From a virus, in IMG/VR virus record IMGVR_UViG_3300043772_001633, positions 1 through 33,772 of that record: DNA of 33,772 nt; one strand, given 5' to 3'. Below the pieces are notes generated by a model. It worked only from the letters and a program-made list of their open reading frames with translations. It was not told the DNA's origin and made no database searches. Shown in pieces: positions 11,619 through 31,538 of this stretch (position 1 is its first letter; every line of letters begins with the position of its first letter). The translations under genes were made by a program, and so were the position numbers.

Positions 11619-13940
11619 TTAAAACATTATATCGTTATCATCTTCAACTTCTGTACCTAACATAAACCAACGCATACCATTAGTATTTCCTTCAGTATAT
11701 TCCATCTTTTTAAAAGTGGCAAACTTATTAACCCAAATGTTAAATTTCTTTCTTGTTAGCCATTTTTTAAAATCTTGATATTCTTCAGTAAATTTTACAA
11801 AGTATTGTGTTTTATCATTTCTAATACCTATTGGAAAATTATCTTTATCATTTATCCATTCGTAAAATTCCATACAAGTTTCTGCAATAAATTTACGCAT
11901 CTTTAAGTTTTTAGCATTTTGAATAACTAAACCGCTTTTTAAATATACTTGTAAACAATAAACCATATAATTATCAAACTTTTGAAACTCTAATATTTCC
12001 CAATCATCAAATAATTGTTTCCCAAATTCATCATAAGGAGTTAAGTTTTTTCCATAATATTGAGCAATTTCTAACTCAAATCTTCTTCTATCGTGTGAAT
12101 TGCCTTCCCCTTTAATCGCATAATTTGTACTAATAACCATCTTTGGACTTTCCTCAACTTTTAATCGAATAGCGTCTTTATTTTTACGCTCTAAAGTCAT
12201 CCCTTCAGTAACTAAACTAAACTTACTTTCAAAATCAAAATTCTTTTTAACATCATCAAAAACCAAAACTTGTGTTTCTGGACTTACTGTTTGATACGGA
12301 AAAGATTTTTTATCATCAAATGTTTTACCATCTAAAATTGACACCCTTCTTATTTGTCTTAAACCCTGAACAAACAAACCTTTTCCTGTTCCGCCTTCAG
12401 GATTTTCAGATATAACCTCATCATTTAAAATAACAGCTTTGTTATTCATTTTATTTTTATATGTAGATAAAAGATAACCAATAACGCTTTCAATTGATAA
12501 AGGTTCTCCTGAAGATATATTATTTATAAAAGTTTTATACTCATTATTAAAATCTTCTAAACTTTCCCAATCTCTTGGTATTATTTGAGAATCCCAAACA
12601 TACCCATTAACATCTATATAATCTATTAATTTAATTTGATGCTTGTTTACTTCTAATATACCATTTTTAAAAGCTAAATATGAAGTAGTTTTAGTATCTT
12701 TTAACATCATCAATTCAACTGTTTCAATCATTGCTAAAAGATTTTCAGAAAATAAATTTTGATAACCAGCACAATATTTCCAAACGTCAATTTGTTGTCT
12801 TTGTATTAAATAATCTAAAACAAAATCCTTTATCTTTTCTATTGAAGTTTCAACAACTTTATTTGATTGAATATAAAGCCAAGTCGGTTTTTGAGAACCA
12901 TCAGGAAAATATTTTTTAAATCCGTTGCGTTCCAAAAATAATTTATATTTTAAAAGGTCGATTTGAATTTTATTTTTTTCGTTTAAAAACCAAAAATCTT
13001 CGTGTTCTAATTCTTCCTTTATTTCGTTATAAACATCCTCCTCAATGTTATGCTTTTTTAATACTTCTTTTTTACCTTTCTTTAAATCAGATTTTATAGA
13101 ATCAATTTTATTAAAATCTTCAAAATACTTAATATCAAAGTTTCTTTTTTTATACGCACTTTTAATTGTTGTTGTAGCTTCCTTTTCTGAAAAGTCACCA
13201 ATAACAACATTATTTAAAATATAACCTTCTGCGGTTGTTTGGCTAATACCATATTCACAAAAAGCACCAGCTAAATCAAATATAAAAGAGTTACGTTCTC
13301 CTTCTCTAAAATCTTTTTTCCAATTCCATAACATTATTTTTGATATTATTTTATCTTCATCAGTAATTGGAACAAGTGGAACTCTATCAGAAATATTAAA
13401 CCCTTCATCTTTTAAAATAGGTTCAAATAATTCTGCTTCAAAATTTACATAAATTTCAGGATCATAACTTTCAAAACATACCCTATCTATATTTGAGTTA
13501 ACAATATCAAAATAATCATATTCAAATTGATTTTGAAACTCTTTAAATACTTTTGGATGTGTTTCTTTGTTTAATTCATTTGATACCCTTATAACCCCTT
13601 TTACTCCATTTCCTGAAGGAGATATAAAAAGAAGTATAAAATGTTTATTCTGTTTTAATAATTCCAAATGATTAAACATAGCTTCTTCATTTGGATATTT
13701 ATCAAAATCCATAATCATTAAACCTGAATGTTCTTTTAATGAATTTGAATTACGCTCATTAAAAATTCCTGAAAATAAAATACAAGGTAATTTGTTTTTG
13801 TTTTCCTTATTACCATTTCTAATACTTTCAACAAGTTCTTTTGAAGCACCCTGTTTAATTCTTTTAATAATCTTTTCAATTGGAACGTGAAAAGGAACGT
13901 CTTTAGACTTATACAAGTCTTTAAATACTGATACTATCAT
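11619..13940 (-). CDS. Primase-helicase: VirE-N/BT4734 domain plus D5/VapE-like ATPase
   Basis: A 773-aa replication protein. The N-terminal ~190 residues look like the BT4734/VirE-N domain, with SGLMIMDFDKYP near 71 and SPSGNGVKGVIRV near 106, which fits an AEP-related fold. A PriCT-like segment follows (EGERNSFIFDLAGAF near 216). The C-terminal half is a D5/VapE-like helicase with Walker A PEGGTGKG near 512 and Walker B VLVFDDV near 557. It likely primes and unwinds phage DNA. Transcription appears to come from the promoter at 14052-14059 and must pass a terminator-like hairpin ending 8 nt before the ATG. Confidence 0.85.
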   Translation of the reverse strand: MIVSVFKDLYKSKDVPFHVPIEKIIKRIKQGASKELVESIRNGNKENKNKLPCILFSGIFNERNSNSLKEHSGLMIMDFDKYPNEEAMFNHLELLKQNKHFILLFISPSGNGVKGVIRVSNELNKETHPKVFKEFQNQFEYDYFDIVNSNIDRVCFESYDPEIYVNFEAELFEPILKDEGFNISDRVPLVPITDEDKIISKIMLWNWKKDFREGERNSFIFDLAGAFCEYGISQTTAEGYILNNVVIGDFSEKEATTTIKSAYKKRNFDIKYFEDFNKIDSIKSDLKKGKKEVLKKHNIEEDVYNEIKEELEHEDFWFLNEKNKIQIDLLKYKLFLERNGFKKYFPDGSQKPTWLYIQSNKVVETSIEKIKDFVLDYLIQRQQIDVWKYCAGYQNLFSENLLAMIETVELMMLKDTKTTSYLAFKNGILEVNKHQIKLIDYIDVNGYVWDSQIIPRDWESLEDFNNEYKTFINNISSGEPLSIESVIGYLLSTYKNKMNNKAVILNDEVISENPEGGTGKGLFVQGLRQIRRVSILDGKTFDDKKSFPYQTVSPETQVLVFDDVKKNFDFESKFSLVTEGMTLERKNKDAIRLKVEESPKMVISTNYAIKGEGNSHDRRRFELEIAQYYGKNLTPYDEFGKQLFDDWEILEFQKFDNYMVYCLQVYLKSGLVIQNAKNLKMRKFIAETCMEFYEWINDKDNFPIGIRNDKTQYFVKFTEEYQDFKKWLTRKKFNIWVNKFATFKKMEYTEGNTNGMRWFMLGTEVEDDNDIMF

Positions 13941-13947
13941 ATAATTT

Positions 13948-13995
13948 AAAAAAAGAGAAAACCCACTAAAGGCTCAACTCTTTAATGGGTTTCTC
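13948..13995 (-). terminator. Intrinsic terminator at the primase start
   Basis: Stem GAGAAACCC-ATTAAAG with CTTTAGTGGGTTTTCTC (one bulge, one mismatch), loop AGTTGAGC, then TTTTTTT. The T-run ends 7 nt before the primase-helicase ATG, so it would block expression unless bypassed. Confidence 0.7.
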
Positions 13996-14050
13996 GGTTA
14001 CGTTAAATTTTTAACGTTAAACTTTCGATGTAGGTTGAGCGTCTACAAAT
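13948..14050 (-). ncRNA. Structured leader or small RNA with possible kissing loop and terminator
   Basis: Read on the minus strand. Hairpin 1 is TGTAG / CTACA (14047-14043 / 14033-14029) with a 9-nt loop containing GCTCAAC. Hairpin 2 is ACGTTAAA / TTTAACGT (14017-14010 / 14007-14000). Hairpin 3 is a 15-bp stem (13995-13980 with 13971-13955, one bulge and one mismatch) with loop AGTTGAGC, followed by seven T's. The loops of hairpins 1 and 3 are complementary over 7 bases. A -7 box lies just upstream. It is either an attenuator of the primase operon or a separate ~100-nt RNA. Confidence 0.6.
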
Positions 14051-14051
14051 G

Positions 14052-14083
14052 CAAATATAAAAATAATTTTAATATAAAATCAA
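14052..14083 (-). promoter_or_regulatory. Promoter for leader RNA / primase operon
   Basis: On the minus strand TTG (14083-14081), a 21-nt spacer, then TATATTTG (14059-14052). Both parts fit the Bacteroidetes -33/-7 consensus. The same 21-nt spacing recurs before the gene starting at 15477. Confidence 0.65.
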
Positions 14084-14210
14084 AATTAAAAAAAAATAAT
14101 TTCGCAACACATTTTTACTTTTTTTTACCCAAAAGTACCCCCCCCTATACTTTTTTATTTTTATCTATAAAGGGTATATAGAAAAGGGTTAAAATGTGTT
14201 GCGTAACAAT
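14084..14210. other. Non-coding palindromic region, candidate replication origin
   Basis: Arms CGCAACACATTTT (14103-14115) and AAAATGTGTTGCG (14191-14203) form a perfect 13-bp inverted repeat around 75 nt. The spacer holds a run of eight or nine C's (14138-14145 area), short inner complements (TATAC / GTATA) and T-tracts. The region lies after one operon's terminator and before the next promoter, between the ssDNA-binding-like and primase-helicase genes, so a DNA-level role such as an origin is plausible. No coding is seen. Confidence 0.4.
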
Positions 14211-31073: not shown

Positions 31074-31081
31074 TATATTTG
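31074..31081 (+). promoter_or_regulatory. Promoter -7 element (TATATTTG) for moron cassette
   Basis: Fits TAnnTTTG on the plus strand. No TTG at the usual distance upstream. It points away from the protease gene and starts the moron leader. Confidence 0.6.
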
Positions 31082-31085
31082 TACT

Positions 31086-31146
31086 TCGCTACAGCAATAA
31101 GATATTTAATCCCTGACATTTGTAGCGAGTGTTGGGGATTTTTTAA
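31086..31146 (+). ncRNA. Leader or small RNA with loop-pairing terminator
   Basis: The RNA would start near 31086. Its 5' end TCGCTACA (31086-31093) is complementary to TGTAGCGA (31121-31128) in the loop of a terminator hairpin. That hairpin has an 11-bp stem (31108-31118 with 31130-31140, two G-T pairs) followed by six T's. The same design occurs before the primase gene. It ends 12 nt before the lipoprotein ATG. Confidence 0.55.
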
Positions 31147-31157
31147 AACAATTTATT

Positions 31158-31538
31158 ATGAAAAAAGTATTGTTAATTTTAGGATTGTCTATTTCGTTAT
31201 TTTCTTGTAATGATTATCAAAGACAACAAAACCAATTAGATGCAGAAAGTGATGGTAAATCTATTTTACTAAAAGCAGAAAGTGAAAAGAAAGCCGACAT
31301 TGAACAAGCAAAAGCAAATTATGAAAGTGCTAAACTTGATGCTTTGACAAGAATTGAAAAAGCAAAGTCAGAAAGTCAAGCTATTTTATTAAAAGCAGAA
31401 AGTCAAGCAAAAGCGAATAGATTGTTAAATGAATCTATTACGCCTGAAATTTTAGAATTTAATAAAATTAATCGTTGGAATGGAAAACTACCAACTACTA
31501 CTTTAGGTAATCAAGGTTCAATTATAAATTTAAAATAA
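31158..31538 (+). CDS. Moron lipoprotein with SPFH/prohibitin-like tail
   Basis: A 126-aa protein with a lipoprotein signal (MKKVLLILGLSISLFSC, Cys17). The mature part is a Lys/Glu/Ala-rich helix with a repeated ILLKAES (35-42 and 75-82), then KANRLLNESITPEILEFNKI and NRWNGKLPTTTLGN. This end resembles the C-terminal segment of prohibitin/SPFH proteins. The gene lies on the plus strand inside minus-strand structural genes, with its own promoter and terminator, as expected for a moron. A role in superinfection exclusion is possible but not shown. Confidence 0.6.
   Translation: MKKVLLILGLSISLFSCNDYQRQQNQLDAESDGKSILLKAESEKKADIEQAKANYESAKLDALTRIEKAKSESQAILLKAESQAKANRLLNESITPEILEFNKINRWNGKLPTTTLGNQGSIINLK

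Follow-up and report, generated by a model that had tools for sequence, protein, structure and literature searches.

We found that the primase-helicase gene in this DNA of a flavobacterial phage is preceded by a member of a class of phage leader RNAs, recognized here, in which a short 5′ sequence (A) and the loop sequence (A′) of a hairpin located just before the start codon are perfect complements of each other. Based on comparison of these leaders, we consider the element to be probably a portable, cis-acting, promoter-proximal transcription attenuator. The window, by which we mean the whole stretch of 33,772 nt that was analyzed, carries a second leader of the same class before an unrelated gene, and relatives are found in cultured phages.

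The primase-helicase gene (11619..13940, minus strand) encodes 773 amino acids and was assigned by its BT4734-like_N and PriCT_1 domain matches. Its leader runs on the same strand from 14083 to 13940, in the order promoter, hairpin 1, hairpin 2, terminator, T7 tract, and the ATG at 13940. The promoter (14052..14083), read from the sequence, comprises a TTG at 14083-14081, a 21-nt spacer, and TATATTTG at 14059-14052, and is of the TAnnTTTG type, located just upstream of A. As the Flavobacterium sigma-A −7 box TAnnTTTG spans positions −12 to −5 (PMC9723704), transcription is predicted to start at 14047, where hairpin 1 begins, in agreement with the 5′ end that an earlier note on this DNA had placed near that position. 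Hairpin 1 (14029..14047) has the stem UGUAG/CUACA and the loop ACGCUCAAC, which holds A, GCUCAAC (14034..14040). The terminator hairpin (13955..13995, with G-U pairs and one small bulge counted in) has the loop AGTTGAGC, also written as AGUUGAGC in the minus-strand reading of 14083-13940, and within it A′, GUUGAGC (13972..13978), sits in the frame AAAG-A-N7-CUUU. The T7 tract (13948..13954) follows in the sequence, placing hairpin and T tract directly before the ATG, and the predicted RNA is ~100 nt long. The earlier note had described this promoter, a first loop containing GCTCAAC, and a terminator with seven T's before the ATG, all of which we confirmed in the minus-strand sequence, and the 7-base complementarity that it had noticed between the two loops is exact, GCTCAAC (14040-14034) being the reverse complement of GTTGAGC (13978-13972). 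Hairpin 2 (14000..14017, ACGUUAA/UUAACGU), a spacer hairpin of variable loop length found only in the window subclass, is also present, but the 8-bp version proposed before would leave a 2-nt loop, and a stem of 7 bp closing a 4-nt loop is the more realistic form.

The leader region folds at −28.9 kcal/mol, with a z score of −4.5 against shuffles. The 7-bp loop duplex is computed to contribute about −9 kcal/mol, and the terminator with its loop left free for kissing keeps −19.0 of its −19.1 kcal/mol. By our own count, the chance that a given 9-nt loop and a given 8-nt loop share a 7-nt complement is ~6/16384, and the window holds three terminator-like sites, the leader terminator included, where 0.2 would be expected. 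Upstream of the leader promoter, an inverted repeat, CGCAACACATTTT (14203-14191) and AAAATGTGTTGCG (14115-14103), flanks eight consecutive G; four related contigs (L043, L046, L052, and L059) have another repeat, laid out in the same way but with its arms separated by a C-run, and the region at 14103-14203 is a candidate origin or operator.

The second leader in the window lies on the plus strand (31074..31144), with TATATTTG at 31074-31081, a T-run ending at 31144, and an ATG at 31158. Its A, UCGCUACA (31086-31093), starts at the predicted +1, and its A′, UGUAGCGA (31121-31128), lies between the stem arms 31108-31119 and 31129-31140. The gene that follows (31158..31538, plus strand) encodes a lipoprotein-like product of 126 amino acids, according to its PHROGs match.

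The evidence that the kissing helix forms is comparative, and the covariation check that had been suggested for related leaders turned out favorably, with loop complementarity conserved through many compensatory changes. Leaders of the homing-endonuclease subclass were chosen only by their terminator features and promoter, without using A, and 31/31 had a perfect 7-nt partner of A′ in the 5′ region, compared with 0/724 when each A′ was set against the 5′ regions of leaders with a different A′. In a 27-sequence alignment of this subclass, whose rows were collected with A in the filter although dropping that filter gave the same number of leaders, 99% of the cells are paired across four helices and 15/22 pairs show double-sided changes. 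Pairing in the kissing helix itself is 100%, and 5/7 of its pairs changed on both sides, and helix 1 of the alignment shows that the stem homologous to hairpin 1 covaries in this other subclass. None of 500 shuffles reached the observed whole-structure values, and slid controls collapsed. Similarly, in the GGTGGA subclass a match of at least 7 nt was found in 33/33 leaders, against 16/448 cross pairs. The phages elemoE and elemoA, which share one host, provide a natural comparison, as GTGGAGG/CCTCCAC in one and TGAGAGC/GCTCTCA in the other occupy the same place and both stems have changed, while the promoter and the downstream spacer are kept.

Complementarity of at least 7 nt between A and A′ is thus kept through compensatory change across the class, whereas the window pair itself is invariant in its own close subclass (L088-L091). 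The window leader shares the terminator top AAAG-A-N7-CUUU with the homing-endonuclease subclass. Depending on the subclass, A is either single-stranded at the extreme 5′ end, giving a pseudoknot, or placed in a hairpin loop, giving a kissing interaction; the window leader is of the kissing sort. In a small group (L025-L029), a related-looking hairpin lies ~100 nt ahead of the primase ATG but lacks a clear T-run and has a match of only 5-6 nt; it is either a decayed or a non-terminating variant. An A/T-rich, ACATTAT-like motif between hairpin 1 and the terminator recurs in two subclasses, and ACATTA is present in 31/86 distinct leaders; it may be a shared recognition site.

For the comparison of leaders, we kept 80 viral contigs with a primase relative. 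In many of them, a TAnnTTTG promoter and the ATG enclose a leader that resembles that of the window little or not at all in sequence but follows the same plan, with a 5′ A that is a perfect complement of A′ in the loop of a hairpin closely preceding the ATG. Primases 76-77% identical to that of the window carry quite different cassettes (e.g., L002, L005, and L008), and other primase relatives are without such a leader (L042, L043, and L046). Wholly different promoter-leader cassettes were also seen before near-identical primase starts (L002, L005, L006, L010, L016, and others), as if the cassettes of close phages had been exchanged as a module. The exact window-type terminator also precedes a Prim-Pol/DUF3987 primase (L090), and a second-subclass pattern (ATAATGAARCC...GGTGGAWTTATS) matches 40 contigs, where it is followed by primases, an 81-88 aa protein starting with MKLFIxNK, and other ORFs.

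A generic scan for promoter, A, A′ in a hairpin, and ATG returned 127 leaders against 7 in reversed sequence; as the scan selects for A/A′, its counts are evidence only against that control. A T-rich tract was also present in 115/127, and 86 leaders were distinct by A and stem. The stem mostly ends 8-26 nt before the ATG, usually followed by the T-rich tract. The genes behind these leaders fall into many unrelated clusters, including primases, HNH/NUMOD4 and GIY-YIG endonucleases (the latter judged from sequence), a helicase, a lipoprotein, and unknowns, along with one DNA methyltransferase, judged from its sequence. Among cultured phages, hattifnatt9-1 of Flavobacterium LMO9 has one leader before a helicase and another before an endonuclease, and many of its relatives on LMO6/LMO9 carry the endonuclease leader; the hattifnatt-type LMO6/LMO9 phages come from a study that isolated 38 virulent phages (PMC7077304). 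Leaders are also found in the elemo phages of host BAL314, where the leader and the replication operon are closely preceded by a tRNA gene, which is tRNA-Met in elemoE (L304) and tRNA-Ala in elemoA (L309). A host-derived RNA was considered and rejected, as the homing-endonuclease pattern matched 38/299 cellular genomes of Flavobacteriaceae, about the chance level given by a similar number for the reversed pattern. No Rfam 15 covariance model matched the leaders at its gathering threshold, with only weak sub-threshold matches, and a literature search covering open-licence papers returned no description of such leaders, though one may exist elsewhere. Attenuator and kissing loop are each of a known kind; joined in a portable, barcoded leader of phages, they appear to be new.

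We propose that a host-type sigma-A RNA polymerase would start at the leader's own promoter and that the first nucleotides, carrying a private A of 7-10 nt, would fold into hairpin 1 or, in certain subclasses, remain unpaired. Once A′ emerges in the terminator loop, A would pair with it and the terminator stem would close around them, so that a compact, clamped terminator would stand directly in front of the start codon. Transcription would by default end at this terminator, releasing the ~100-nt RNA, and the downstream gene would be made only when polymerase reads through, most likely upon the action of a phage or host factor that recognizes the conserved fold or modifies the polymerase. The kissing may stabilize the terminator or may make a binding platform.

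The sequence comparisons support the helices (the kissing helix among them), the architecture and the portability of the element, and the absence of space for a further promoter, while we infer how efficient termination is, whether kissing favors or hinders it, what triggers read-through, and that regulation is the purpose. Since a gap of 8-26 nt between stem and ATG leaves no room for another promoter, the gene must be reached by read-through, which makes a cis attenuator the best reading. In the window, the operon upstream of the leader ends in its own terminator (14238-14215), so primase transcripts most obviously come from the leader promoter. The earlier note had offered either control by terminator bypass or a stable phage RNA of ~100 nt; the nearness of the ATG and the terminator of the upstream operon favor bypass. 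Beyond what that note could see, the element is one member of a class that precedes many unrelated genes, often more than one per phage genome, so the leader is not primase-specific. That the same plan stands before so many unrelated genes points to control of whatever follows. Kissing is compatible with termination, as the terminator arms lie outside the kissing helix. A search of the scanned leaders for an alternative antiterminator helix gave none, complementarity of the arms to the upstream leader being equal to the cross-control. Because the kissing helix spares the arms and no antiterminator helix was found, a switch is not visible in the sequence, and we rejected a classical antiterminator switch or riboswitch expression platform, as no helix competes with a terminator arm.

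The main rival to the cis attenuator, which we regard as possible but doubtful, is that the locus mainly serves to make the terminated ~100-nt RNA, or that this RNA acts in trans like IsrK, binding leaders of its own type through A/A′ and altering their termination or translation, which would give gene-dose feedback privately specific to each gene. Pairing of A with A′ could occur between molecules as well as inside a single one, and IsrK is a known case of promoter, sRNA, terminator, and gene, its read-through form being acted on in trans by the short one (PMC4825925). Leaders in one locus shared 6 nt of A in 0/36 cases where ~2.4 would be expected, but this within-genome orthogonality is only suggestive, being significant neither overall nor within the homing-endonuclease subclass. 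In addition, A and A′ lie some tens of nucleotides apart in one molecule, where intramolecular pairing should win, and nearly all members have the gene almost immediately downstream.

That closeness of the stem to the ATG (8-26 nt in most members) also bears on a translational or mRNA-stability element, in which a sealed 5′ end and a start-codon hairpin would set the translation or decay of the read-through mRNA. Initiation in F. johnsoniae tends to fall with structure around −20 to +20 (PMC6847099), which would fit; however, the T-rich tract after the stem is typical of intrinsic termination and not needed by a purely translational element, and we consider this reading unlikely. A P4-like prophage immunity RNA, a primase-specific autoregulator, or a replication primer is very improbable. 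The window copy does precede a primase-helicase gene, as in P4, but primase autoregulation or priming of replication is disfavored as the general function by members before endonuclease, helicase, lipoprotein, and unknown genes, and P4-type immunity by the presence of the class in virulent isolates. An ordinary terminator with an accidental 7-nt match is hardly credible, for although AT-rich DNA readily yields short matches over long distances, chance is rejected by the covariation, the 31/31 and 33/33 matches, and the 127 versus 7 leaders of the scan. A DNA-level reading, such as a transposon or an origin, was set aside, as promoter and T tract are kept together with the structure.

Whatever the trigger, the RNA class is widespread and strongly covarying, has no Rfam match, and occurs in phages that infect a major group of aquatic bacteria. 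Little is known of how these phages control their genes, and the class suggests that replication genes and homing endonucleases share a common regulatory logic. As cultured virulent phages carry it (hattifnatt and its kin on Flavobacterium LMO6/LMO9, elemo on BAL314), the mechanism is directly testable, and the private loop pairs might serve as orthogonal regulators in tools for Bacteroidetes. A bolder and rather doubtful extension is that flavobacterial phages possess a modular RNA regulon, in which per-gene attenuators are barcoded by private kissing pairs and the short RNAs would feed back in trans only on their own leader; if true, replication genes and homing endonucleases would be under orthogonal gene-dose control.

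Several known systems resemble the proposed attenuator in part. The purine, preQ1, and fluoride riboswitch or attenuator leaders combine kissing loops or pseudoknots with an intrinsic terminator before the gene and share the long-range loop contact with the class, but there the aptamer and the terminator are separate or mutually exclusive, whereas here the terminator loop is itself the kissing partner and no antiterminator was found. ColE1 RNAI-RNAII also uses 7-nt kissing loops with private specificity, although its loops are on different RNAs and here both are on one leader. The CI immunity RNA of phage P4 controls premature termination before a primase-helicase gene, as proposed for the window leader, but it is a prophage immunity system, while this class occurs in virulent phages and before many genes. 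HK022 put RNA and lambda Q/tR′ are likewise promoter-proximal phage elements that decide read-through; put acts on distant terminators and the Q site is DNA, whereas here RNA and terminator are one structure. The phage-borne IsrK of Salmonella prophage Gifsy-1 has a promoter, a short RNA with its own terminator, and genes reached only by read-through, although kissing between a 5′ end and a terminator loop is not described there (PMC4825925). IsrK is one locus, whereas the leaders described here stand before many genes, in phages of another phylum.
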